A stretch of 27,171 bases of DNA from a virus. A program made the position numbers and the translations under genes. Numbering within the stretch: the first letter of the stretch is position 1; each line of letters begins with the position of its first letter. The notes under the pieces are model-generated. The model saw only the letters and a list, made by a program, of their open reading frames with translations, searched no databases and was not told where the DNA came from. This document shows, in pieces, positions 1,134 to 22,992 of the stretch. The stretch lies in IMG/VR virus record IMGVR_UViG_3300033134_000011, positions 1 through 27,171 of that record; one strand, 5' to 3'.

Positions 1134-1206
1134 GCCGACATAGCTCAGTTGGTAGAGCAGCTGATTCGTAATCAGCAGGTCCCCGGTTCAAGTCCGGGTG
1201 TCGGCT
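1134..1206 (+). tRNA. tRNA-Thr (anticodon CGT)
   Basis: A full cloverleaf can be drawn. Acceptor GCCGACA (1134-1140) pairs with TGTCGGC (1199-1205), with discriminator T at 1206. The D-arm has GCTC/GAGC around AGTTGGTA. The anticodon stem GCTGA/TCAGC encloses loop TTCGTAA with anticodon CGT at 1167-1169, which reads ACG (Thr). The T-arm is CCCGG TTCAAGT CCGGG. CCA is not encoded. It is the last recognisable host gene before the prophage, so its 3' end is a candidate attachment site. Confidence 0.96.
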
Positions 1207-1225
1207 CCTGAAATAAGGCGGTTGC

Positions 1226-2206: not shown

Positions 2207-2475
2207 GGCGCGAAGGCCTCCCGCTCGAGCGCGGCCTCGAGCCTGTTGTAGTAGCGCCACCGCTGGGCCCGCGCGACCTCGCGCGCCAGGCTCGAGCTCG
2301 CGGAGAAGCGGCCATCCATCCCGCGCAGCCCAGGCCCGGCTGGGCGCAGGAAGACCGGCAGCGTCGGGACCGGCAGTGGCTCGTGGCGCCCGAACAGCGG
2401 CGCCTGGAAGGCGAGCGCGTTCACGCCCAGGATGAGGGCGATGACCGCGGGCGCGATGAGGGTCTCTCGCTTCAC
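2203..2475 (-). CDS. Small membrane protein in lysis region
   Basis: A 90-aa protein with one hydrophobic segment near the N-terminus (about 7-23, 'IAPAVIALILGVNALAF'), a Pro-rich stretch, and a charged helical C-terminus (about 60-88, with repeated Arg/Glu/Ala). It overlaps both neighbours by 4 bases (ATGA upstream, GTGA downstream), so it is surely translated. The topology (short N-terminal anchor and helical tail), directly before the endolysin, would suit an inner-membrane spanin or other lysis accessory. No family motif supports this, so it is best treated as unknown. Confidence 0.7.
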   Translation of the reverse strand: MKRETLIAPAVIALILGVNALAFQAPLFGRHEPLPVPTLPVFLRPAGPGLRGMDGRFSASSSLAREVARAQRWRYYNRLEAALEREAFAP

Positions 2476-3737
2476 TTCGCCGGCGACGTGGGCGCGCTGG
2501 CGCCCGCTGGAGCTCCGGCGGCTCCCGGCGCAGTGGTGTCCAACGTCGCCGGCGGCGGATTGGGAGGCGCTGTGGCGACCGTCGCGGGAGCCGCCGGCGG
2601 CCGCGTGTTCAGCTCCGCGGCGCCGCCGAGCTGGATGCCGATCGTGAGAGCGACGGCCATGTTCTTCAGGCTGAAGCTCCCGACGGCCAGACCCGAGATC
2701 GTGCCGCCGTAGTCCTGCACCAGGTCGGGCAACGCCACGATGCAGCCGAGGGCGCCGACGAAGCAGAGCGCCGGACCGGCGCCCACCGAGAAGAGCGTCT
2801 GTCCCCCGTCGGTCGCCAGGTTCGCGAGGCCGCCAAAGCCCAGGGTGAGGATCGGCTTGTTCCCGAGGACGGAGCCGAAGTTCTCCTGGAAGAAGTCCCA
2901 GCCGAACTCATAGCCGAGGCCACCGCCGAACGCGCTCGAGGCGGGCTTGCCGCTCGCGGGATCCTCCCACCGCAGGAGGTAACCGGACGCGAGGGGGCCG
3001 TGGGAGAACTGGCCGTTCGTGAAGGGCACGACACACGTGTTCGTCGTCTGGTCGAGCGTCTGTCCCGCCGGGCACGTGAGGGTCTGAGCCCGCGCCGGCG
3101 CCGCGAAGACGAGCCCGAGCAGGAGCACGGCGAGCAGCCGTGGCGGCGGCCGCGGCCAGCCGCGATCGCGCCGCGTGACGTAGACCGCGAGCAGGAGCCA
3201 GCCCGTCACCACCGCGGCGAGACAGATCGCGAAGGTCGCGTGCCCGGCGACCCAGAGGCGCCAGCCGAGGATCCCGAGCATGCTGAGGCCGCACAGGACC
3301 GCGAGCATCCGCTGGATGGCGAGGCCTCCCGCCGGCGAGGGCATGTTCGCCACGCCGCCGCCCGGCGTCGTGACCGGCGCCGGCGGCGGCAGATTCGCCT
3401 TCAGGTGCAACCGCTGGTGGATGATGTCGCCGACGATCGCCTCGGCGTCCTTTTCGGCCTGGCCGTGGTTCGCCGCCCAGAACGAGATCGCGGAGGCCTT
3501 CGCCGCGGCGAACGCGGCTGCCGGGTCCTTGCCGCCCTTGATGGCCTCGAGCATCCCCTCGCCGGCCTGCTCCGCGAGCGCAGCTGCGTCGGCCTCCGCG
3601 GCGTCGCCCTTCGAGGTGAAGAAGCCCACGACCGTCGCGCCCAGGCCGACCCAGGCGGTGATGAGGTGCGGTCCGAGCACGACCGTCAGGCCGAGCCAGA
3701 GGATGGGATTCGAGAGCTCTCCGAGTGCCTTGTCCAT
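2472..3737 (-). CDS. Polytopic membrane protein with an internal signal-peptide-like segment and exported beta-rich C-terminus
   Basis: 421 aa in one unbroken frame from ATG 3737, with AGGAGG just upstream. Residues 11-40 are hydrophobic and are followed by an Ala-rich helical region (about 45-115). Two membrane segments lie at about 143-163 and 166-187. Residues 201-218 (LLAVLLLGLVFAAPARAQ) look like a signal peptide with an AxA cleavage site. The remaining 200 residues are Gly/Phe-rich and beta-like, with two early Cys pairs (TLTCPAGQTLDQTTNTCVV), ending in a Pro/Ala/Thr-rich tail. The N-terminal part and location suggest a holin-like role; the exported C-terminal part is unusual for a holin. 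I saw no start codon that would let the C-terminal half be made separately. Function unknown. Confidence 0.7.
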   Translation of the reverse strand: MDKALGELSNPILWLGLTVVLGPHLITAWVGLGATVVGFFTSKGDAAEADAAALAEQAGEGMLEAIKGGKDPAAAFAAAKASAISFWAANHGQAEKDAEAIVGDIIHQRLHLKANLPPPAPVTTPGGGVANMPSPAGGLAIQRMLAVLCGLSMLGILGWRLWVAGHATFAICLAAVVTGWLLLAVYVTRRDRGWPRPPPRLLAVLLLGLVFAAPARAQTLTCPAGQTLDQTTNTCVVPFTNGQFSHGPLASGYLLRWEDPASGKPASSAFGGGLGYEFGWDFFQENFGSVLGNKPILTLGFGGLANLATDGGQTLFSVGAGPALCFVGALGCIVALPDLVQDYGGTISGLAVGSFSLKNMAVALTIGIQLGGAAELNTRPPAAPATVATAPPNPPPATLDTTAPGAAGAPAGASAPTSPAK

Positions 3738-3750
3738 GAGTCCTCCTGGT

Positions 3751-4020
3751 TCACTTCCCGCCGACGAAGGCGGCCTGCGCTGGGGCGGCGAGCCGCCCCT
3801 TGAGAAATGCGATCTGCGCGTCCTGCGCGTCGTTCTTCGCCGCGAGCGCCGCGTCCTGGGCGCGCACGTCCCGGTCGAGCTGCGCGACCTGGGTGGCGAT
3901 CGGCTCGACCGCGGCCTGGATGCGATGGTCGAGCCACGCGGTCGCGGAGCCCAGGAGCGCGGCCCCGAGCAGCGCGGCCTGCACCTGCTTCGGGAGCAGC
4001 TTCACGAGGAGCTCGCTCAC
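3751..4020 (-). CDS. Small membrane-anchored coiled-coil protein (lysis region)
   Basis: An 89-aa protein. A hydrophobic segment (about 14-29, 'VQAALLGAALLGSATAWL') is followed by a helical, heptad-like stretch (about 36-70, 'VAQLDRDVRAQDAALAAKND'). GTG at 4020 is chosen because GTGA overlaps the stop of the gene before it. The arrangement, N-terminal anchor and C-terminal coiled coil, mirrors that of its upstream neighbour (coiled coil and then anchor), so the pair may act together in the inner membrane. Possible roles are spanin or holin accessory; neither is shown by a motif. Confidence 0.7.
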   Translation of the reverse strand: MSELLVKLLPKQVQAALLGAALLGSATAWLDHRIQAAVEPIATQVAQLDRDVRAQDAALAAKNDAQDAQIAFLKGRLAAPAQAAFVGGK

Positions 4021-4406
4021 CGGCGCGCTCCCGGGTGCTCGGCCTGGTACGCCTCGATTGCGGCCACGATGGTCTCCACCGGTGGCGCCGGCGGATGCTG
4101 GACGGTCCAGAGCGAGACCAAGGTGGCAATCACCGCGGCGCCGGCGATCGCCCACTGTGGCCAGTTCGTCTGCCGCTTGTCCCTGGTCCGCTCGGCCTGG
4201 GACTGGATGCGGATGACCTCCGCGAGCTGCGGCTCGACCTCGGCCATGCGCTCCCTCAGCGCCATGAAATCCTTCTGCAGGTCTTCGATGTCGCGTGCGA
4301 GCCAGTCGTGCTCGCGGCGGTTGAGGTCCCGCAGCCCCTTGAAGGCCTCGTCGAGCCGCGCCGGGTTCGGGCTGTCGACGGTGTCGTGGTCGCGCTCGGA
4401 GGACAC
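4017..4406 (-). CDS. Coiled-coil protein with C-terminal membrane anchor, XhlA-like layout
   Basis: About 129 aa. Residues 15-75 are a long charged helix with a heptad pattern ('REHDWLARDIEDLQKDFMAL', 'RERMAEVEPQLAEVIR'), and a single membrane segment follows ('WPQWAIAGAAVIATLVSLW'). A coiled coil followed by one TM helix is the layout of XhlA-type holin partners, which fits the lysis region, but no specific motif proves it. The start is uncertain. GTG 4406 begins 8 bases after the upstream stop but has no clear ribosome-binding site; ATG 4508 would overlap the previous gene by about 90 bases with poor-looking sequence. Confidence 0.65.
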   Translation of the reverse strand: MSSERDHDTVDSPNPARLDEAFKGLRDLNRREHDWLARDIEDLQKDFMALRERMAEVEPQLAEVIRIQSQAERTRDKRQTNWPQWAIAGAAVIATLVSLWTVQHPPAPPVETIVAAIEAYQAEHPGARR

Positions 4407-4414
4407 ATCGGCGG

Positions 4415-4849
4415 TCAGAAGCCGTTGCCGGCCGGGTTCACCTGGCAGGCGCCGAGAACTCCGGCATCGCTGTTCGTGACGCTCAGCTGGACCTTCATCA
4501 TCGGCCACGCGTTCGCGGTCACGGTGATGGCCACGCCGGCGTCGAGGCCGCCGTCGAGCGCCTGGAACGTCGTCGAGGTGCTCGTGATGACCGCCCAGTA
4601 CTTCCCGTCGATGCTGCCGAGCAGCTGCACCGTGCCGTTGCCGTTCCCTGGCACCGGCGCGTAGACCGGGCAGGTCACGACGAACTGCGTGGGGTTCAAC
4701 CCGTTCGCGCTCAGCGTGACGACGTCGCTGGTGCGAACGCCGCCGTCGAGCAGGATCGTCTGTGAGCCGCCCCAGGTGAGGGGCAGCGCAAGCGCCCGGA
4801 TCGAGAAGACCGCAAGGAGCGCCCCAGCCAGAAGCGACAGCCGTCTCAT
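4415..4849 (-). CDS. Small exported beta-rich protein of unknown function
   Basis: A 144-aa protein starting with a clear Sec signal peptide (MRRLSLLAGALLAVFSIRAL, then ALPLTW). The mature part (about 120 aa) is rich in Thr, Val and Gly with repeated short beta-like stretches, Asp-Gly-Gly and Asp-Ala-Gly words, and two Cys ('VVTCPVYAPVP' and 'VLGACQVNP') that could form a disulfide. The start at 4849 is chosen for the signal peptide; the ribosome-binding site is weak. It is the first gene of the lysis region after the antisense lipoprotein gene. An exported beta protein here is unusual; it might act in the periplasm or at the cell surface. The same DGG-rich style is seen in the large exported fibre at 9848-12646. 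Confidence 0.7.
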   Translation of the reverse strand: MRRLSLLAGALLAVFSIRALALPLTWGGSQTILLDGGVRTSDVVTLSANGLNPTQFVVTCPVYAPVPGNGNGTVQLLGSIDGKYWAVITSTSTTFQALDGGLDAGVAITVTANAWPMMKVQLSVTNSDAGVLGACQVNPAGNGF

Positions 4850-5008
4850 ACCCGATCGGCTACGCCCGCGGCGCCGGCGCCGTCCACCGCTGCTCTGGCG
4901 CCCGTGCAAACGTTGCGTTCTGCGTCGATGGCCGCCTGAATTTTGCAGCCGTGTGGCCGTCTCAGTCGACAGGGCGTATCATCGCCCCAGCTCTCAGGAG
5001 GAGCTCCC
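4850..5008. promoter_or_regulatory. Divergent intergenic region upstream of the lipoprotein gene
   Basis: 159 bp between the minus-strand exported-protein gene and the plus-strand lipoprotein gene. It is the longest non-coding stretch in the phage part and must hold the lipoprotein promoter. TATCAT (4977-4982) is a possible -10, but no good -35 lies at 16-18 bp; TTGCAG at 4943 is too far away. No operator-like repeat is visible. Confidence 0.35.
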
Positions 5009-5572
5009 ATGCGTCACCAGGTGCTTGCACTCGTCGCCGCGGCCGCCGTTGCCGCCTGCGGCGCCCCCCCGGACACCTCGAGCAGCTCCTCGACGGGCGC
5101 AGGTTCCCCGAGCAGCTCCTCGAGCGGCGGCAGCTCGAGCGGCGGCCGCGCGGGGACCTCGAGCAGCTCCTCGGGCTCGAGCTCGTCGAGCAGCTCCACC
5201 TCGGCCGGCTCCTCGAGCTCCGGCGGCTCGACGGGCGGGAGCTCGAGCGGCGGCGGCTCGAGCGGGGGTTCGACCGGAGCACCGGCGTGCACGAATCCAG
5301 GACCGGCCAATGCGCTTCCATCCTGCAGCGCGAATGAAGGGTGCTGCCTCGGGACGGTTTGCACGACCACCGTGCCACAGTCCGGCGGTCTTCCGGCTTG
5401 CGTCTACGTGGGCCTGTGGACGTGCACGGCCGGTTACTGCTGGGACGGTACTGCCTGCGCCGCGGGTGGAACACAGTGTCCGCAGGAGCCAACCGGGGCT
5501 CCCTGCGACGATCGCAGCGATGGTCAGTGCAGCAGTGGATTCTGCAATCCCGATGCTGGGACCTGCCTCTAG
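5009..5572 (+). CDS. Ser-rich, Cys-rich lipoprotein (probable moron)
   Basis: A 187-aa protein. The N-terminus MRHQVLALVAAAAVAAC-G is a signal peptide ending in a lipobox, so the mature protein should be lipid-anchored. Residues about 24-90 are an almost pure Ser/Gly/Thr linker. The last about 95 residues form a compact domain with 14 Cys (an even number, consistent with disulfides), including 'EGCCLGTVC' and ending 'FCNPDAGTCL'. This linker-plus-Cys domain is typical of myxobacterial surface lipoproteins. The start has a perfect AGGAGGA (4996-5002). The gene lies opposite to all other phage genes, between tail-fibre and lysis genes, as expected of a moron expressed in the lysogen. Its target is unknown; surface alteration or superinfection exclusion is speculation. 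Confidence 0.85.
   Translation: MRHQVLALVAAAAVAACGAPPDTSSSSSTGAGSPSSSSSGGSSSGGRAGTSSSSSGSSSSSSSTSAGSSSSGGSTGGSSSGGGSSGGSTGAPACTNPGPANALPSCSANEGCCLGTVCTTTVPQSGGLPACVYVGLWTCTAGYCWDGTACAAGGTQCPQEPTGAPCDDRSDGQCSSGFCNPDAGTCL
5080..5280 (+). repeat. Degenerate Ser/Gly codon repeat
   Basis: Runs of agcagctcctcg-type units encode the Ser/Gly linker of the lipoprotein. They are degenerate and in frame, so they are a coding low-complexity region and not a mobile or CRISPR repeat. Such tracts can change length by slippage. Confidence 0.8.
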
Positions 5573-6261
5573 CTCCGCGGTCCGAAGGCCACGAAGAAGA
5601 TGCCCATCGCGGTCGTGGCGAGGTCGATCTGTGTGAGCGCCGATCTCGACCACATGCTCAGGTCCGCCTGTGTGCCGGAGCTCGCCGAGTAGGAGCCGAA
5701 CGCCGAGGAGCCGGCGGACGTGGCGATCACCAGGGCGCCGTAGTAGTTCGACGAGAAGCCCTTCGCGAAGTTGACGACGACGGCCAGACCGGAGATCGAC
5801 ACGCTGGCGACGTCGGCGCCCGCCTCGAGGCTGGCGTTGCCGGCGCCATCGGTCTCGATGTAGCCCCAGCTCGCTCCCTGCTTCGCGAGGAAGGCCAGCC
5901 AGTCGGCGCCCATCGAGAGCGGCACGTCGATGGCCGCCGCCGTCGGAGCGTCGGAGCCGACGGGTTCCTGGATGGTGGGCGCCACGCCGGCCATCGGGAG
6001 ATCGCCGGCGCAGGTCCAGGTGACCGTGCCGTCGACGACGGTCCCGCCCGGAACGAGGGGCCAGGGGGAAGGCTCGGACGATCCGGTCGTGCCGCTGCTT
6101 CCGGCGTTGTAGTAGTAGAGCCCGTTCGGCGCGGCCTTCGGGTAGACCTGCGCGCCCGTGCCCTTCACGGTGCTCGCCGCCCACTGCGCCGGGCTGCTCG
6201 GCGCCGGAGCTCCGGCCACCTGCGCGCTGCCCCCCTGCTGTCCTGCGTATCCGCTCGGCAT
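5569..6261 (-). CDS. Short tail-fibre / tail tip protein
   Basis: A 230-aa protein whose middle part carries the phage tail-fibre module of the type 'YPKAAPNGLYYYNAGSSG ... SEPSPWP ... VDGTVTWTCAG' (about residues 38-85), found in many fibre and collar proteins. A Gly/Ala/Ser-rich N-terminus precedes it and a beta-like domain follows (about 105-230). It is the last gene of the tail module and probably contacts the host surface or attaches a fibre. The position after the gp48-like protein corresponds to Mu gene S, but it is much shorter than Mu S. Its stop codon shares the CTAG tetramer with the stop of the convergent lipoprotein gene. Confidence 0.75.
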   Translation of the reverse strand: MPSGYAGQQGGSAQVAGAPAPSSPAQWAASTVKGTGAQVYPKAAPNGLYYYNAGSSGTTGSSEPSPWPLVPGGTVVDGTVTWTCAGDLPMAGVAPTIQEPVGSDAPTAAAIDVPLSMGADWLAFLAKQGASWGYIETDGAGNASLEAGADVASVSISGLAVVVNFAKGFSSNYYGALVIATSAGSSAFGSYSASSGTQADLSMWSRSALTQIDLATTAMGIFFVAFGPRS

Positions 6262-6270
6262 GGTGCCTCC

Positions 6271-7026
6271 TCAGTACGTGTAGACCGTCGATCCGGCCTG
6301 GGTCGCGAAGGTGCCCGCGCCGTCGCCGGTGAACGTCCGGCCTGGCGGGAAGTCGAACATCGCCCGCGCGGCGCCGCCGGACGTCCCGACGGCGACGGCG
6401 ATCCCCTCCTTCGCGGCGTGCCCGGCGCCCCAGCTCGTGAGCACGGCGCGCAGCGTGTTGAGCTCGTCGCTCCAGCCGGAGCCCGGAGAGGGGGGCGAGC
6501 CGCTCCAGCTCGCCGGCGCCGGCGAGAAGAGCAGGAGACTCCGGTTCCACATGCGCGCGATGTGGTCATTGAGGCCGTCGGCCTGGCCGTCCTCGCTCGA
6601 CATGGCCCAGACCGGACCCTTCAGGAGCGCCGGCGGGTTCGTGACGGTGACGCCGGAGCTCGGGCCGTACTGGCGGCCGTTCGGGTACACGACGTAGGCG
6701 CTCGCGTAGCCCATCGCGGCGAGCTGCAGGAGGATGCCCCAGGCGCTGCCGGCGGTCGCCCAGGCCTGCCAGGCCTGCCGCAGGCGCGTCGCGTACGAGC
6801 TCGAGCTCTCGGTCGGCCCCTGGGCGATGCCGCGCTCGAGCCCGATGGCGGCGAGCGCATCGAGCGGCCCGAGGCCCGGGAGCCGCGCCTTGATGGCCTG
6901 CTTCGCGCGGTCGACGAGGAAGTCCTTCTGCTGCCCGTGGGCGGCGAGCCAGGCCGCTCCGTAGGCCCCCGAGAGGAAGCGCGGGGCGATCGCCGGTTGG
7001 TGGACCTGGTAGAGCGGCCCGGCCAT
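6271..7026 (-). CDS. Baseplate/tail protein, Mu gp48-like (P2 gpI position)
   Basis: A 251-aa protein following baseplate J, where Mu gp48 and P2 gpI lie; these finish the baseplate and link to the fibres. The N-terminal 110 residues are helical, with the pattern common in this group ('GLGPLDALAAIGLERGIAQG', 'YATRLRQAWQAWATAG'). The C-terminal half has a Trp/Gly-rich beta-like part with 'WAMSSEDGQADGLNDHIARM'. ATG 7026 overlaps the J stop (TGATG). The call rests mainly on position and the N-terminal pattern. Confidence 0.7.
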   Translation of the reverse strand: MAGPLYQVHQPAIAPRFLSGAYGAAWLAAHGQQKDFLVDRAKQAIKARLPGLGPLDALAAIGLERGIAQGPTESSSSYATRLRQAWQAWATAGSAWGILLQLAAMGYASAYVVYPNGRQYGPSSGVTVTNPPALLKGPVWAMSSEDGQADGLNDHIARMWNRSLLLFSPAPASWSGSPPSPGSGWSDELNTLRAVLTSWGAGHAAKEGIAVAVGTSGGAARAMFDFPPGRTFTGDGAGTFATQAGSTVYTY

Positions 7027-8786
7027 CAGACGCTCACGTAGGCGCCGGAGCCCGGCGGGGTGAAGTCCGCCACCTGGGCGCCGACGAGGACGATGTCCGC
7101 CGTCCCGCCGTTGATGGTGAGCCCCTCGACGTTGCGCACGCCGGCGACGGCCTGGATCGTCTCGAGGACGACCGAGTAGTAGACCGTGCCGCCGATGCCG
7201 ATGGAGATCTCCAGGGCCGCGAGGGCGCTGGCGATCGCGGCCTGCGCGGCCGCGAGCTGCGCGGCGTGCACATAGATGCCGCCGCCGGCGCCGACGCCCA
7301 CCGCGATCGCGAGGCTCGAGACGTTCTGCACCGAGACGCTCACGCCCTCGGGGGCGCGCGCGTCGATGTAGCTCTGCACCGCGGCGAGGGCCGAGGCGCT
7401 CACGGGCTGGTCGTCCGCCTTCGCGACCAGGATGTTCACGAGGCCAGGGGTGTACTGGTCGACCTCGATCTGGGCGGTGGCCACCTCGTTGCTAGCGGAC
7501 TTCGCCCAGTTCACGTAGATCCCGATGGGCGGCGCCGGCGCGAGCGTGCCCCACTGGTTCACGCAGCGGGTGGCAAGGGAGACGTTGCTCTCGCTATCGG
7601 TCCCGTTCTGCTGCAGCCACGCGCTCGAGAAGGTGTAGAGGTCATCGATCTCGAAGGTCCCCGTGAAGGTCGCCGAGAGGCCGGTCCCGGGGATCGCATA
7701 GGCTCCGCTGGGGATGGTGACCGGAGCGGAGTAGGAGGCACCGTTGACCGAGTACTCGAAGGTCCCGACGCCGGCGCCGCCGGTGGCGGTGATGGAGATC
7801 GAGACCAGCTTCTCGGCGCTCGGGCTCCCCGAGACCGCGATCGTCCCGCTCCCGCTGCCGGAGTGGGACACGGGCGGGTTGGAGAGCAGCGGGTTCGAGA
7901 CCGAGACGCCGGCGAGCGGCGTGAGCATCGTGACGATGTTGTCGAGGCCCGGGGTCCCCGTGTACGAGGTGACCGCGTTGTACTTCGAGCCCGGTTGCTG
8001 CGCCTGGACGAGCAGCTGCAGCGTGCCGCCGGCGAGCAGCGTCCCGCCCTGCAGGTTGTACCAGACGCTCCCGTCGACGGCCTGGAACGAGAGCTGCCCA
8101 GCCTGGATGGTGTACGGGCCGGCGCCGGAGACCGCAGTCAGGGTCACATAGCCCTGGGCACTCTGCGCCACGTTCCGGCTGAGGTTGTAGACGGCCTGCG
8201 CGACCAGGTCGAGCCAGGCGCTCGGCGGCGGCGTGGGCACGCCGTTCACGAGCGGGGGCGTGAGCCAGGAGGTCACGAGGCCGCCGGCGGCGATCTGGGC
8301 GATGGTGCCGGAGAGGTCCGAGAGCTCCTGGGCCTCCATCTTCAGGAGCGTCATCGGGACGCTGCCCTCGCTCCAGTTCGTGATCGGGAACGTCGGCGTC
8401 GTCGAGGCGAAGGCGTAGGTCTCCCCCACCTGGAAGGACCCGCCCGAGGGGGCGTAGGAGCCGTTCGCGAAGGTGAGGGTGACGCCGATGGTCGAGAGCG
8501 CGTAGGACCCCGAGCTCGGGATCGTCTGCGTCGACGACCAGGTATTCCCGCCGTCGAGGGAGTACTGGAACGTCCCGACGCCCACCTGGCCCGAGGCGAT
8601 GATCTGCAGCACAACCTGGGCGGCCGCCGTCGCGGGCCCCTGCGCGCTCACCTGGCCGGTGCCCACGATTGCTGCGCCCGGAGCTCCGGACTGGATGACG
8701 GGCGAGACGCCCTGCAGCGAGGCGAGGAGCTGCTCCTCCATCTCGTCGGCGGTCAGGCCCGTGATGAGCTCGGCGAGGGTTACCAT
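7026..8786 (-). CDS. Baseplate protein J (Mu gp47-like) with two inserted beta domains
   Basis: A 586-aa baseplate wedge protein. The N-terminus ('LAELITGLTADEMEEQLLAS') and the C-terminal third ('YTPGLVNILVAKADDQPVSA', 'YIDARAPEGVSVSVQNVSSL', 'AGVRNVEGLTING') match the Baseplate_J type that builds the wedges with the gp46-like protein. It is longer than the usual 350-400 aa because of two related beta domains, about residues 47-131 ('GVGTFQYSLDGGNTWSS') and 307-390 ('GVGTFEYSVNG'). Related copies occur in the sheath. A further region (about 215-275) is also beta-like. The gene starts one base after the wedge-gene stop. Confidence 0.9.
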   Translation of the reverse strand: MVTLAELITGLTADEMEEQLLASLQGVSPVIQSGAPGAAIVGTGQVSAQGPATAAAQVVLQIIASGQVGVGTFQYSLDGGNTWSSTQTIPSSGSYALSTIGVTLTFANGSYAPSGGSFQVGETYAFASTTPTFPITNWSEGSVPMTLLKMEAQELSDLSGTIAQIAAGGLVTSWLTPPLVNGVPTPPPSAWLDLVAQAVYNLSRNVAQSAQGYVTLTAVSGAGPYTIQAGQLSFQAVDGSVWYNLQGGTLLAGGTLQLLVQAQQPGSKYNAVTSYTGTPGLDNIVTMLTPLAGVSVSNPLLSNPPVSHSGSGSGTIAVSGSPSAEKLVSISITATGGAGVGTFEYSVNGASYSAPVTIPSGAYAIPGTGLSATFTGTFEIDDLYTFSSAWLQQNGTDSESNVSLATRCVNQWGTLAPAPPIGIYVNWAKSASNEVATAQIEVDQYTPGLVNILVAKADDQPVSASALAAVQSYIDARAPEGVSVSVQNVSSLAIAVGVGAGGGIYVHAAQLAAAQAAIASALAALEISIGIGGTVYYSVVLETIQAVAGVRNVEGLTINGGTADIVLVGAQVADFTPPGSGAYVSV

Positions 8787-8787
8787 G

Positions 8788-9588
8788 TCAGGTCACCTGC
8801 AGGATGGTGGTGGAGAGGTCGGTGACGGCGACCACCATGCGGAATGGGCCGGACCCGACGGGGGTGATCTGGCCCACGAGCGTGAGGGTCTCCGTCTCCT
8901 CGTCGAACGAGAGGGCGACGTCGGCTTGCTGCACGCGGTCGTCGCGCTCGGCCTGGGCGGCGAGCTGGCCCTGCCAGGCCGCCAGCAGGTCGTCGGTGAT
9001 GCCCTCGTTGAGGAGCAGCTGGATGTCCTCGCCCCAGCTCGCGTCGTAGAAGAGCGTCCCCTTCTGGGTCGTCCAGCCGTGGTAGAGGTCCTGCGCGAGG
9101 ACCTGGCGGCCGGTGATGAGCGAGAAGCTCGGGTCGAGGTCGTCGACGCACAGGACGTCCGTGCCGTAGTCCGTCGAGCCGGCCGGCCCGAGCACCTGCG
9201 CGTTCGGAGGCGTCGCCGGCGCCGGCGCGGGGGCGGGCAGCGGGGACAGGTTCCAATAGCCGTCCCCGAGCTCGCCGGAGTCGGGCATTCCGGCCTGCGT
9301 CCAGCGCAGGATGGTCGAGGCGTAGAACGTCTCCGAGGACCAGGCGAAAACCTCGCTCTGGCCGGCGCCCAGGCGCACGGCGTAGAGCGCGCTGCCCGGG
9401 AGCTGGACGTACGGGCCGCCGTTCGAGACGAAGAGCCCAAGGTTCCCGCTGATGCCGTACGAGCCGCTCCCGGTCACCTCGACGATGACCGAGAAGCCGC
9501 CGCTCCCGGTCAACGAGATCGGGTCGGAATCGACGGCGGCCGCGGCGCTCACGGAGGAGGCGCCGCTCCATGTGACCTTCGTGCTCAC
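8788..9588 (-). CDS. Baseplate wedge protein, Mu gp46 / T4 gp25-like, with N-terminal extension
   Basis: A 266-aa protein. The C-terminal about 125 residues carry the GPW/gp25-type pattern: 'VDDLDPSFSLITGRQVLAQD', 'LLLNEGITDDLLAAWQGQLA', then a short beta end 'SGPFRMVVAVTDLSTTILQV'. This family seeds sheath assembly at the baseplate. The first about 115 residues are an added beta-like domain ('SGSYGISGNLGLFVSNGG') with a Pro/Ala linker (about 120-132), not found in the roughly 130-aa classic proteins. GTG 9588 is chosen because GTGA overlaps the preceding stop. It sits directly before baseplate J, as in Mu. Confidence 0.82.
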   Translation of the reverse strand: MSTKVTWSGASSVSAAAAVDSDPISLTGSGGFSVIVEVTGSGSYGISGNLGLFVSNGGPYVQLPGSALYAVRLGAGQSEVFAWSSETFYASTILRWTQAGMPDSGELGDGYWNLSPLPAPAPAPATPPNAQVLGPAGSTDYGTDVLCVDDLDPSFSLITGRQVLAQDLYHGWTTQKGTLFYDASWGEDIQLLLNEGITDDLLAAWQGQLAAQAERDDRVQQADVALSFDEETETLTLVGQITPVGSGPFRMVVAVTDLSTTILQVT

Positions 9589-9839
9589 TTCTTCGCAGGG
9601 CCTTTCGCGGGGGTCTTCGGCGCCAGCGGCGCTGCCTTGGGGGCCGGCGCGGGCGGCGGCTTCGAGGCCTGGACCATCGCGTCGACCAGCTTGGCCGGCA
9701 TGCAGAGCGCCAGCTCGCCGTCGGAGGTGAGCAGGAACTTCCCGCCGGGGCAGATCGCCCCCTGGTCGCCGGACAGCACGGCGGTGGCGGGAGGGGTCGG
9801 CGAGGCGGCGAGAAACAGCGAGAGAAGCGCGGCGTGCAT
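9585..9839 (-). CDS. Small exported Lys/Pro/Ala-tailed protein
   Basis: An 84-aa protein with a probable signal peptide (MHAALLSLFLAASPTPPATA), a short middle part with two Cys ('GAICPGGKFLLTSDGELALC'), and a strongly basic Lys/Pro/Ala tail of about 27 residues reminiscent of histone-H1-like tails. It has a strong site (AGGAGG) before ATG 9839. It lies between the large exported fibre and the wedge gene and overlaps the latter by 4 bases. Function unknown. A partner or chaperone for the fibre is a guess from adjacency and shared export. Confidence 0.68.
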   Translation of the reverse strand: MHAALLSLFLAASPTPPATAVLSGDQGAICPGGKFLLTSDGELALCMPAKLVDAMVQASKPPPAPAPKAAPLAPKTPAKGPAKK

Positions 9840-9847
9840 GAGGCCTC

Positions 9848-12646
9848 CTAGGAGCCGCTCGGACCGATGCCGAGGGCAACGTAATCGATCGTGTACTGAG
9901 ACTTCGTGTTCGGCGTGAAAGCCGCGGCGGCGTTGATGTTGATGGAGCTGGACAGCGGGGTCGGCAAGAGCACCGGGAAGACGGGTACGCTTCCGGCGTC
10001 GGTGTTGCCGGCGACGTTCACGAACGCGGACGGCGGCGCGCCGTAGTTTGTGTTGAAGGCGATCGAGAGCAGCCGACTGTTTACCGCGCAGGAGGAGGTC
10101 GAGGTCGCGGTGGTGACGACGATCGATCCGGCAGCGTCGGTGGACCCGCTCGTCACCGAGCACGTCGCACCGGAGCCCCAGCAGGCCGCGATGTCGCCGC
10201 TCGGGCAGGTCGGCGCGCTGCTCTGGATCGCCACCCCAAGGTGGTCGGTGTGCGATCCGAGCAGAAGAGCGCCGGAGGTCGTATAGACCTCGGGGCCGTA
10301 GCTCGATTCCCCCGCGATCGCGAGGGCGTAGGTGCTGCCCGCGCCGATCTCCGTGAGGCCCGACCCGGGCTCCAAGAGTATCGGACTCGAGGCCGTGCTC
10401 AGGACCGTGTTGCTGACGCCGGCCTGGACCTCCAGGCGCGTCGAGGCGTCGGAGCCCAGGTAGACCTCGCCGCTCGCGTTCGCGTTGAGCTGGATGGCCT
10501 GCCCGCTCGCGGCAGCGATCGTCACGGTCCCCGAGCCGTTGTCGGCGATGGAGCTGGTGCAGGTCGGCGAGCTGCTCTCGGTGCAGTTGAGGTTGAGGGC
10601 GTTCGTGCCGTAGATGTCCAAGGCCCCGACGTTCTCCGTGAAGGCGAGCGGCGAGAGGAAGAGGTTGGTCCCGTACCCGGCTGGGCTGATGAAGGATCCA
10701 CCGTAAGCCGACACGTAGCTCCAGGCGGCGGCGGCGACTTTGATGGTCCCGGTCGCGCCACCGATGGTCACGGCGCCGCTATTGGGGTTGAGAAGGAGAT
10801 CTCCGCTGTTCGTGACGATCTCGCCCCCGTTGTTCATCGCGAGGTTCCCACCGTCGACCGTCAGGCCGCCGTCCGCGAAGAGGTTGCCCCACACGTTGAC
10901 AGCGCCGATGAAGTTCGAGGCGCCGCCGCTGACGAGCAGGCCGCCCGCGCCCTGGAGGAGCCCGGCCGCGTAGAGGTTCCCGTAGAAGTCGCCGCCGGCC
11001 GCCACGTCCAGGCCGCCGTCGACCGTGAGCGTCCCGGGGCTCGTGCCGGTGTTGGCCGTCACCCAGTATGGAAGCCCACTGCCGCCGCCTGTGCTCCCGA
11101 GCGCGATCGGCGCCCACTGGCCGCCATCGCAGTAATACGGGATGCCGCCGTCGGAGATCACCTGGCCCGCGTTCGCCCCGGTGCAGGCCCACGCGGTCGC
11201 GTTGTTCACCAACTGGATCGGCACCCCGGCCTGGCAGTCCTCTCCGCTCGTGCAGAGGAGCATCGCGACGCCGTCGGTCGTGAAGCCCGCTGCGTACGAT
11301 CCGCCGGACGGCACGTTGACGAGCATGTTGGCGCCGCCGGAAGTGCAGATGCCGAACTGGTTTCCGCAGGCATTGGCGAAGTTGCCAATCGTGAGGAACC
11401 CGTTGGCGCTGTCCGAGGCGACGTAGTTCAAAGCCTGAAGCGTGCCCCGCGTCCCGGCGCCGTTGACCAGCGTCAGGGTGTTCCCGGCATCCGGGTAGAG
11501 GCCAGGCTCTCCTCCGTCGGCGATGCCGAAGATCAGGTCTCCGAAGGCATCGAGGGTGAGGACCCGGTCGAGCCACGGGTTCTGCTCGCCGCCGTCGGGG
11601 TCGTACTTGTTCGCGTGGATGAGGTCGTGGCCCGGCGAGCCTGGGCTGTTGGTGATGAACAGAGAGGAGGAGTACGTCGACGGCGTGGGAGAGAGATCGC
11701 TGGAGATGGCCACCACCGAATTGAGAGGGCCTGGAATGAACTCGGACAGGCCAGAGTAGCCGGCGGTGAAGTCGAGAGAGTTGCTGATCGAGGCGTTCCC
11801 GTTGCGGTCCATCAGCATCAGGAACTCCGACGACCCGCCGGCGTCCATGTAGATGGAAAGGGCGTAGCCAAAGCGGTAGCCCTTCCCCGCGGTGTCGTTG
11901 TCGACGATCGAGATCGCTGGGTAGTAGGGGCTGACGTTCGTCTGGCCGATCGGGTTGGTGACGAGCAGGCCCGGCTGCTGGCCGGTCCAATCGCTCGTGA
12001 CGCCGTTCGTGCTCGTGACAGTGCCTCCGTCGGTGGGACCGAGCGTGAGGCCGCCACCGGGGCCTTGGACGAGCTCGGCGCCGTTGCAGAACATGACGCC
12101 GAGGCCGTTGATCTCCGTGCAGTCCGCGATTGTCTCCGAGCCCGCGTCGAGGTCCGGCGTCGTGACCGATGCGGCGGTCAGGCCGGAATCTGGGAGCGCG
12201 AAGGGGCCCTGTGGACCCGTGGGGCCAGTGGGGCCGGGGATCGCGACCTGGCTGTTCACCACCGAGAGCGTGACCCCCGTCCAGGTGCTCCCGCCGGCGG
12301 TGTAGCTCACCCAGGCCGCGCCTGTTCCCCCGTCCGTGTTCAGGTAGCAGACCTGGATCCCCCCGTCCGTCGGCGAGGTGAACGGCCCGGCGTCGACCTG
12401 GGGCCCGATGGGGGAGCTCGGGTTCAACGGATCCACGGGCTGCAACGTGACGAAGAAGCCGCCGTCGGAGGCGACCGCGAGCCCACCGAGCGTGAGCTCG
12501 ACGCAGGTCTGGTTGTAGTAGAGCGGTGAGGCCGGGAACGTGCCCCCGCCGTCGACGGGTACGTAGTTCAGGATCTGGAAGGTCGCCTGCGCGGCCGCCG
12601 TGGAGGAGGCGAGGAGCGCCAGGAGCGCGATGAGCGTGGTCTTCAT
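9848..12646 (-). CDS. Large beta-rich fibre-like protein with Sec signal peptide
   Basis: 932 aa. Residues 1-19 are a clear signal peptide (MKTTLIALLALLASSTAAA, then QATF). A collagen-like triplet run (PGPTGPTGPQGP) lies at about 137-148. The long middle part is built of Gly/Asn/Asp-rich short strands with many DGG words, like beta-solenoid tail fibres ('YGNLYAAGLLQGAGGLLVSG', 'GNLFADGGLTVDGGNL'). The last about 125 residues have the pattern of phage-fibre C-terminal receptor domains ('STDAAGSIVVTTAT', then 'LLSIAFNTNYGAPPSAFVNV', ending 'YTIDYVALGIG'). The start is secure because ATGA overlaps the gp45-like stop. Tail fibres are normally cytoplasmic, so the signal peptide is odd. In Mu, gp45 and gp46 are adjacent; here this gene and the next separate them. 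Confidence 0.82.
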   Translation of the reverse strand: MKTTLIALLALLASSTAAAQATFQILNYVPVDGGGTFPASPLYYNQTCVELTLGGLAVASDGGFFVTLQPVDPLNPSSPIGPQVDAGPFTSPTDGGIQVCYLNTDGGTGAAWVSYTAGGSTWTGVTLSVVNSQVAIPGPTGPTGPQGPFALPDSGLTAASVTTPDLDAGSETIADCTEINGLGVMFCNGAELVQGPGGGLTLGPTDGGTVTSTNGVTSDWTGQQPGLLVTNPIGQTNVSPYYPAISIVDNDTAGKGYRFGYALSIYMDAGGSSEFLMLMDRNGNASISNSLDFTAGYSGLSEFIPGPLNSVVAISSDLSPTPSTYSSSLFITNSPGSPGHDLIHANKYDPDGGEQNPWLDRVLTLDAFGDLIFGIADGGEPGLYPDAGNTLTLVNGAGTRGTLQALNYVASDSANGFLTIGNFANACGNQFGICTSGGANMLVNVPSGGSYAAGFTTDGVAMLLCTSGEDCQAGVPIQLVNNATAWACTGANAGQVISDGGIPYYCDGGQWAPIALGSTGGGSGLPYWVTANTGTSPGTLTVDGGLDVAAGGDFYGNLYAAGLLQGAGGLLVSGGASNFIGAVNVWGNLFADGGLTVDGGNLAMNNGGEIVTNSGDLLLNPNSGAVTIGGATGTIKVAAAAWSYVSAYGGSFISPAGYGTNLFLSPLAFTENVGALDIYGTNALNLNCTESSSPTCTSSIADNGSGTVTIAAASGQAIQLNANASGEVYLGSDASTRLEVQAGVSNTVLSTASSPILLEPGSGLTEIGAGSTYALAIAGESSYGPEVYTTSGALLLGSHTDHLGVAIQSSAPTCPSGDIAACWGSGATCSVTSGSTDAAGSIVVTTATSTSSCAVNSRLLSIAFNTNYGAPPSAFVNVAGNTDAGSVPVFPVLLPTPLSSSININAAAAFTPNTKSQYTIDYVALGIGPSGS

Positions 12647-13146
12647 CCGATTTGCACCTTCGAGCTGCCGCTCGTGATCTGCCCGTCGAGGGTCTGCGTG
12701 GCGCCGGCGACGACGCACGCACCGCCCCCCGACGGCGCCGTGAAGCTGAAGGCCGAGAGCTTGGCGAGCGTCAGGTCGACCTGCACGCTGTCGCCGTTGC
12801 GCGCCGCGCCCTGCCCTCCGCCGGCGAGCAACATCGTGAGTAGCCCGCTCGAGCTCTGGTCGAAGAGGGCCGCGCGGGGCGAGCCTGGGTCACCCCCGTC
12901 GAAGCCGAAGCGTACGCGCGTGCCCTGGGCGACGGTGATCGTCACGCCCGGAGCGGTGTGCTTCAGCGGCACCTTCGAGAGCGATGGCCACCGCACGCGG
13001 TCATCGGGCTGCAGCTCGAGCGAGCCGTCCGCGTTCTGCGAGACGACGGTCGCCGGGAACTCGCCCCAGTAGTCGATGGCCGGGAAGACGGCCCGGATGA
13101 TGGCCGCGAAGGAGCGCTTCAGCCTGTCGAAGGTCGGGTCGTTCAT
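12643..13146 (-). CDS. Baseplate spike protein V, Mu gp45-like
   Basis: A 167-aa baseplate spike. Residues about 22-95 form an OB-fold-like core ('AIDYWGEFPATVVSQNADGS', 'TVAQGTRVRFGFDGGDPGSP') typical of gpV/gp45 proteins. The C-terminal part (about 115-167) is a short strand-rich end ('GDSVQVDLTLAKLSAFSFTA', 'GATQTLDGQITSGSSKV') that would trimerise into a spike tip for piercing the outer membrane. ATG 13146 overlaps the upstream stop by 4 bases (ATGA). No metal-binding HxH tip motif is visible. Confidence 0.85.
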   Translation of the reverse strand: MNDPTFDRLKRSFAAIIRAVFPAIDYWGEFPATVVSQNADGSLELQPDDRVRWPSLSKVPLKHTAPGVTITVAQGTRVRFGFDGGDPGSPRAALFDQSSSGLLTMLLAGGGQGAARNGDSVQVDLTLAKLSAFSFTAPSGGGACVVAGATQTLDGQITSGSSKVQIG

Positions 13147-22019: not shown

Positions 22020-22898
22020 CTACGCCTGGGTTCCGGCGGGGATGCCCCGGGGGAAGATGAACGCGGCGAAGGATCCGGACGCGGCGCCCGCGGTGAGCGC
22101 CACGCCGATGCGCTCGCCGGCGGTGACGTTGCCCGAGGAGAGCGTCGACGCGCACGCGACGGCGAGGCCGCTGGCGTCGGCCTCGAAGAAGGCGCCGACC
22201 CCGATGGTCCCGTCCGCCAGCACCGCCGGGTGGAACCCGAAGATGCGGACGATGCCCGCGGCGTTGGCCGCGCCGGGTGAGTTGACGAGCACGCCCAGGG
22301 CCGGGTCGCCGGCGACGCACAGGACGAGCTTGCCGGAGCTGTTCAGCTTGACGAGCTTGCCCGCGGCGAGGGCGCCGTTCGCGGGGAAGACCACGTCGAC
22401 CGGGCCGCCGCCCTGGGGCGCGAGCGCACCGCTCTCGACCCAGACGCCGTCCGAATCGACCTGGATGATGCGGCCCGCCGCGACGCGGTTGGCCGTGACC
22501 GAGCCGCCGACCGTGCCAGCGGTGAGGCCCACGGTCTGGTCGTCGATCGCGTAGGCGGTCTGCCCGATGTTCGCGGCGGAGATCGCGTCGACGCCGCTGC
22601 CGTTCGCCCACTTGAAGACGCCGCGCTGGATCTGGCAGGCGATGCTGCCGGCCACGCCGGAGCCGGAGAAGGCCGAGGTGCCGGTCCCGGAGTTGTCGGC
22701 CTCGCGCTCGGCGCGGCCCAGGATGGCGATGGGCGGGTTGCTGCCGCCGGGCGTCGCGGGCACGGCGTAGCCGTTCGCGTCGACGCCGGTGAGGCCGCCC
22801 TGGTAGATGTGCGTGGAGGCCTCGACGCCGGGCTCGACGAGGCTGATGACCGCGTCGGTTCCCATCTTCTTCGTGTTGCGACCCGCCGTGAGCGCCAT
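22020..22898 (-). CDS. Capsid decoration/cement-like protein, two-domain
   Basis: A 292-aa protein directly upstream of the capsid gene. It seems to hold two similar beta-rich halves: about 1-160 ('HIYQGGLTGVDANGYAVPAT', 'GRAEREADNSG') and about 168-292 ('ALAAGKLVKLNSSGKLVLCV', 'AGERIGVALTAGAASGSFAA'). Both resemble short DUF2190-like decoration proteins of about 110 aa, which bind the outside of the capsid. The second half fits better than the first. AAGGAGACGACG lies before ATG 22898. The role is inferred from position and style. Confidence 0.72.
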   Translation of the reverse strand: MALTAGRNTKKMGTDAVISLVEPGVEASTHIYQGGLTGVDANGYAVPATPGGSNPPIAILGRAEREADNSGTGTSAFSGSGVAGSIACQIQRGVFKWANGSGVDAISAANIGQTAYAIDDQTVGLTAGTVGGSVTANRVAAGRIIQVDSDGVWVESGALAPQGGGPVDVVFPANGALAAGKLVKLNSSGKLVLCVAGDPALGVLVNSPGAANAAGIVRIFGFHPAVLADGTIGVGAFFEADASGLAVACASTLSSGNVTAGERIGVALTAGAASGSFAAFIFPRGIPAGTQA

Positions 22899-22907
22899 CG
22901 TCGTCTC

Positions 22908-22954
22908 CTTGAAAAGCAAAAACCCCGGCGACCGCGTCTAGCGGTTCACCGGGG
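22908..22954 (-). terminator. Intrinsic terminator (or attenuator) inside the late operon
   Basis: On the minus strand, CCCCGG (22954-22949) pairs with CCGGGG (22928-22923), and ACCGC with GCGGT inside, around a 5-base loop. The stem is followed at once by TTTTTGCTTTT (22922-22912). This is a canonical rho-independent terminator for right-to-left transcription. It lies 10-25 bases before the decoration start, with the ribosome-binding site directly after the T-run. It must be partial or bypassed if the capsid genes are to be expressed from the same mRNA. Confidence 0.82.
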
Positions 22955-22992
22955 CCGGTTGTTCCGTACCTCGTGAGGCTATGGAGCAGGGT

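Follow-up and report, generated by a model that had tools for sequence, protein, structure and literature searches.

A fibre-like protein with a predicted signal peptide encoded among the baseplate genes of a Mu-like phage

Introduction

The virions of tailed phages are taken to be assembled wholly in the cytoplasm. Phage T5 makes, early in infection, the small receptor-blocking lipoprotein Llp. PblA and PblB of Streptococcus phage SM1 are not known to carry a signal peptide, and get to the surface of their Gram-positive host via the phage lysis system. They are tail proteins that serve as surface adhesins (see also PMC2920869). In the literature that we searched, which lay outside subscription journals and preprints, no description was found of exported or signal-peptide fibres of tailed phages.

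Here we analyse the IMG/VR record IMGVR_UViG_3300033134_000011, whose 27,171 bases form the whole of the window referred to below. The nearest cultured relatives of the phage in the window are Myxococcus phage Mx4 (OK085710, a Mu-like myovirus) and phages of Meiothermus and Thermus, at 31–39% identity, and the host is therefore probably a myxobacterium. Identity to Mx4 is 39% for the sheath, 32–34% for the portal and 36% for the capsid, and these proteins and the order of the baseplate genes both place the phage among the Mu-like (Mx4-type) contractile-tail phages. The tail module of Mx4 has the same gp45-gp46-gp47 order, and also carries a lipoprotein-like ORF past the short fibre gene (on the minus strand in Mx4). 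It differs from the window in that gp45 and gp46 are adjacent with no insert, which bears out what a first-pass annotation had assumed for such phages; in addition gp46 has no extension, and no exported fibre-like protein was found in the Mx4 tail region.

Results

Gene order and the inserted pair

At its left end the window has some 1.1 kb of apparently host-derived sequence, together with a tRNA-Thr gene (1134–1208, plus strand), which is located where the apparent host DNA meets the phage genes and is a possible integration site. Integration may be site-specific rather than by transposition, despite the Mu-like head and tail genes. The late genes are on the minus strand. Their order, taken from a codon-model gene caller, runs from the portal (27081) through capsid, sheath, tape measure, the gp45-like gene, P0001, P0002 and the gp46-like gene to Baseplate_J, a gp48-like gene, a short fibre gene, an exported 144-aa protein and the lysis region. 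The genes around the insert are as follows.

12643..13146, minus strand: gp45-like baseplate spike gene (HMM from relatives, E 4e-51)
9848..12646, minus strand: P0001, a fibre-like protein of 932 aa, whose translation has a signal peptide, a collagen-like GPTGPTGPQGP sequence and 16 Cys
9585..9839, minus strand: P0002, 84 aa, whose translation has a weak signal peptide, two Cys and a Lys/Pro/Ala tail
8788..9588, minus strand: gp46-like wedge gene, 266 aa (HMM E 8e-43 over residues 139–264; phrog_975 baseplate protein, 9.4e-6)
7026..8786, minus strand: gp47-like Baseplate_J wedge gene (PF04865, 9.6e-22)
6271..7026, minus strand: gp48-like tail gene, 251 aa, assigned by position, with a weak match to phrog_34969 (tail, E 0.048)
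5569..6261, minus strand: short fibre-like gene, 230 aa, resembling in position and start the gene that follows gp48 in relatives

The first-pass annotation had placed two genes between baseplate genes here, and both the pair and its flanks stand as described. The P0001 ATG overlaps the stop of the gp45-like gene by 4 nt (ATGA, 12646–12643), the P0002 stop overlaps the GTG of the gp46-like gene by 4 nt (GTGA, 9588–9585), and P0001 and P0002 are separated by 8 nt, with AGGAGG ahead of the P0002 ATG. Because the pair is coupled in this way to the baseplate genes at both ends, the two starts are secure, as had been argued. No promoter-like site of the types scanned was found for P0001 or P0002. 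With these overlaps and the 8-nt gap, the pair shows neither a promoter-like site of its own, among the types scanned, nor the opposite orientation of a moron gene.

P0001 is the only long fibre-like gene in the record, and its GC3 of 0.907 is the lowest among the baseplate and other structural genes. No homolog was found in viral contigs, genome contigs, phage records, PHROGs, Pfam or the PDB, nor in 247 genomes from the phylum of one distant match (probably not the phylum of the host). A match in L082 (E 4e-4) was rejected as a shadow ORF. The searches of Pfam, PHROGs, phage records and the PDB likewise linked P0001 to no known fibre or receptor-binding domain, and the phage-type receptor-binding C-terminus that had been suggested for P0001 finds no match in PHROGs, phage records or the PDB. 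Fold prediction, proposed earlier as a check, was uninformative (AlphaFold without an alignment, two runs, mean pLDDT 35 and 34).

Evidence for export

The N-terminus of P0001, MKTTLIALLALLASSTAAAQA, is a textbook Sec signal peptide, with n, h and c regions, a charge of +1, a cleavage site and a score of 6.2 in a rule-based scorer.

12584..12646, minus strand: predicted Sec signal peptide of P0001, residues 1–21 (rule-based scorer), with cleavage after residue 21, between AQA and TFQ

Scores this high are rare, since only 15 of 1,104 proteins of at least 150 aa in the loci of related phages reach 5.8. Both proteins of the pair had been described as starting with Sec signal peptides. This is well founded for P0001, while P0002 has only a weak score (4.4, by the same rules), with no Lys or Arg ahead of its hydrophobic stretch. 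P0001 has no lipobox, there being no Cys before residue 48. No internal start with a ribosome site was found in codons 2–200, so there is no obvious cytoplasmic form of the protein, and dual localisation by an internal start was rejected.

The cysteines of P0001 point in the same direction. They make up 1.72% of its residues, compared with 0.47% for 22 other head and tail proteins encoded in the window (p 1e-4). Read along the chain, the 16 form eight close pairs, with gaps of 52, 11, 7, 6, 18, 8, 8 and 24 residues, a degree of pairing that has p = 0.0008 against random placement. The number is even and the arrangement paired, as in a disulfide-type pattern.

The same mark was looked for in 1,182 distinct proteins of at least 150 aa from the other phage loci fetched, excluding the window and masking motif Cys. 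In this set, which draws on a limited range of phage groups and whose members are partly non-independent, even and odd Cys counts stand at 35:3 in proteins with a signal peptide and 332:254 in those without (p 4e-6), and the signal-peptide proteins also have tighter Cys pairing (p 7e-5) and more Cys (p 1e-5). The non-exported fibre-like proteins of the relatives have no Cys pairing (combined p 0.43). Signal peptides in such phages are accompanied by disulfide-like Cys patterns, and P0001 fits that mark. Given its signal peptide, and a number and spacing of Cys that suit an oxidising compartment, it is concluded that P0001 is very probably exported, in agreement with the first-pass annotation.

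The gp45-gp46 gap and the gp46 extension

Relatives were found by portal alignment in viral contigs, and the tail regions of 32 were retrieved; leaving out two near-copies and adding Mx4 gives the 31 relatives counted here. HMMs for gp45 and gp46 were built from the relatives, and both genes were found in every region, including the window. An insert was defined as at least one separate gene of at least 150 aa in the gp45-gp46 gap.

The first-pass annotation implied that an insert here is exceptional, and this is wrong: 12 of the 31 relatives have a fibre-like gene at the same site. None of these inserts is a homolog of P0001. By inspection, LamG-like and beta-helix-like proteins are among them, and on a Baseplate_J tree the inserts have been gained or lost at least seven times. 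The gap is a fibre hotspot, occupied time and again by diverse fibre-like genes, and such a hotspot is itself ordinary modular evolution of phage fibres. P0001 is encoded in the tail module at this fibre site. A convincing signal peptide is missing from all 12 inserts; two of them do score above 5 (L103, 5.49, and L127, 5.06), but with what appear by eye to be hydrophobic cytoplasmic helices. The unusual feature of P0001 is its predicted export and not its location. The inserts of L109 (922 aa, LamG-like), L102 (684 aa) and L098 (458 aa) illustrate this, as they share with P0001 the slot, a similar size and an extended gp46, but have no signal peptide, no Cys pairing where it can be tested, and no sequence similarity to P0001.

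The gp46 domain starts at or before residue 10 in 19/19 relatives that have no insert, and at residue 16 or later in 10 of the 12 that have one. In the window phage it starts at residue 139.

9175..9588, minus strand: N-terminal extension of gp46, residues 1–138, a candidate docking part from the association of extension and insert in relatives

The association (10/12 against 0/19, with one gp46 fusion, L120, left out) has a Fisher p of 1.5e-6, uncorrected for kinship; a kinship-aware test has three well-supported pairs, with one or two in agreement and none against, and is not significant. The link between extension and insert is thus suggestive. In addition, the fibres encoded downstream tend to be shorter in phages that have a gap insert (p 0.03). 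Taken together, the hotspot, the gp46 extension, the shorter downstream fibres and the fact that P0001 is the only long fibre-like protein of the record favour P0001 being a virion fibre attached at gp46.

Predicted exported fibre-like proteins in other phages

Exported fibre-like proteins are also predicted in the relatives L125 (477 aa), L126 (221 and 190 aa), L127 (729 aa) and L022 (207 aa), in all cases outside the gp45-gp46 gap. Residues 280–476 of the L125 protein, a C-terminal part amounting to 41% of its length, match a tail fibre, itself without a signal peptide, from cyanophage KBS-S-2A (32% identity, E 2e-5). Real fibre domains therefore occur in exported form. In L022, an SGNH/lipase-like protein (phrog_6102) and a fibre-like protein with 7 Cys, both exported, are the products of two overlapping minus-strand genes (3845–4525 and 4522–5145).

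A consensus for the N-terminus of an exported phage fibre was used as a DNA pattern. In viral contigs it gave 20 matches where about 0.1 would be expected (a rough estimate), and each of the 20 immediately follows a strong signal peptide. The matching proteins that are complete within their stretch are mostly of 400 to 1,344 aa, and several others extend past its end. In phage records the same consensus gave no significant match (E 10).

The contigs with these matches (20 of 20) form a podovirus-like group (L130–L149) with P22/BPP-1-like tail and capsid genes. Interspersed with their head and tail genes are arrays of genes for exported fibre-like proteins, with starts like MKRLLLxLALLLAPSxAxAQCNGVFPNNTVCGN. 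The structural operons of this group encode several further exported proteins, and 32 of its 114 proteins score at least 5.8. Six podophage records related to the group by tail protein contain no clear signal-peptide structural protein. The exported proteins of the group (start AQCxGxF..N.VCGN) resemble P0001 in having a signal peptide, a fibre-like character, paired Cys and a place among structural genes; they differ in sequence and in phage lineage, both unrelated, and P0001 lacks the AQC motif.

Other exported or accessory genes of the window

Three further genes of the window encode predicted exported or membrane proteins.

5009-5572, plus strand: lipoprotein gene located just past the short fibre gene, in the orientation opposite to the late operon
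4415..4849, minus strand: second exported late protein, 144 aa, signal score 6.89, with two Cys, two DGG and a weak match to phrog_16217 (function unassigned)
2472-3737, minus strand: 421-aa protein with the look of a holin-type membrane protein that continues in frame into a further stretch

An opposite-strand exported or lipoprotein-like gene after the short fibre gene occurs in the window, in Mx4 and in several relatives, with sequences that are dissimilar by eye. Examples are L002 (Mx4) 22561-22965 (minus), L098 12627-13148 (minus) and L109 7379-7852 (plus in the locus, opposite the late genes). This position is a recurrent accessory-gene slot. The Mx4 record instead annotates small plus-strand ORFs there (p68, p69). 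In the 421-aa protein, the in-frame stretch looks to be a second signal-peptide-like segment with a periplasmic domain carrying a CPAGQTLDQTTNTCV motif, which resembles the Cys region of P0002.

Discussion

The explanation that we tentatively prefer, and regard as quite possible, is that P0001 is a Sec-exported, disulfide-stabilised fibre that meets the virions at lysis. Late transcription would yield P0001 together with the baseplate proteins, and Sec would carry it to the periplasm, where it would fold and its disulfides would form. Fibre helpers are often encoded at such a place, and P0002, which is co-encoded with P0001, possibly assists P0001 in the periplasm. At lysis P0001 would meet the particles and dock on the baseplate, probably via the N-terminal extension of gp46, to serve as the main long fibre of the phage. 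Several findings speak against this reading. The inserts of the relatives have no convincing signal peptide, so that docking at the gap site does not need export; P0001 resembles no known fibre in sequence; the link to gp46 loses its significance once kinship is taken into account; and the six podophage records related to the podovirus-like group contain no clear signal-peptide structural protein.

The first-pass annotation had listed several roles for an exported protein here. A new route of fibre loading fits best of these, receptor masking at lysis is possible, and a lysogenic adhesin or biofilm protein fits poorly with a baseplate slot that has no promoter space.

The main rival is an exported receptor decoy. 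P0001, made late, would bind the phage's own receptor on the dying cell, on debris or on neighbours, either so that progeny are not lost or so that superinfection is blocked, and would be a soluble fibre-shaped analogue of a receptor-blocking protein. The signal peptide and paired Cys suit a decoy as they stand, the fibres in the same slot of relatives need no export, and a late operon is well timed for lysis. The pairing in L022 of an exported fibre-like protein with a signal-peptide SGNH/lipase-like protein would likewise suit surface modification. However, P0001 shows neither an outer-membrane anchor nor a lipobox, its gene is in the baseplate operon and adjoins an extended gp46, and a decoy would leave the virion with no other long fibre in this record. 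We consider a decoy, in either form, rather unlikely.

It is improbable that P0001 is a host-captured surface protein (an adhesin, biofilm or exclusion factor) expressed from the prophage. Lysogeny is made plausible by the apparent host DNA and tRNA-Thr at one end of the record, and the DGG-rich exported style of P0001 and its GC3, lowest of the structural genes, would suit such an origin. Against this, the overlapping genes leave no space for a promoter and none of the types scanned was found, and the window has a separate plus-strand lipoprotein gene, in the opposite-strand orientation that exported accessory genes have in several relatives and in Mx4; a lysogeny-time adhesin is less likely for both reasons. 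The recurrent fibre slot and the extended gp46 also argue for a virion-linked role over an adhesin or biofilm protein.

Last, an ordinary cytoplasmic fibre whose N-terminus merely resembles a signal peptide would match the fibre-like proteins in the same slot of relatives, but is very improbable, because the Cys pattern of P0001 makes a non-functional signal peptide unlikely, and exported-type proteins of other phages again combine a strong signal peptide with high, even and paired Cys, as controls do not.

Returning to the preferred reading of a fibre that meets virions at lysis, a wider form of it is a real possibility, which we put forward with some reserve: at least two unrelated lineages of tailed phages may use a two-compartment route, in which the particle is built in the cytoplasm, disulfide-bonded fibres are exported by Sec to the periplasm, and the two meet at lysis. 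If so, the window phage would be the clearest Mu-like case, with its fibre encoded among the baseplate genes beside an extended docking protein. A class of fibre-like proteins with signal peptides and disulfide-like Cys patterns, encoded in structural operons, would imply either that the last steps of some virions take place beyond the cytoplasm or that adhesive decoys are released at lysis, and either outcome would alter the prediction of receptor-binding proteins. The recurrence of such proteins in other, unrelated environmental viruses suggests that, in some tailed phages, the adhesive equipment is partly produced outside the cytoplasm.

Two further known systems invite comparison. PblA and PblB are like the proposed P0001 in being phage tail proteins that act at the cell surface, but they are not known to have a signal peptide, take the lysis-system route and belong to a phage of a Gram-positive host. 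If P0001 is instead a decoy, then T5 Llp is a parallel, as an exported phage protein that acts on a receptor, but Llp is a small early lipoprotein, whereas P0001 is a large late fibre with no lipobox.
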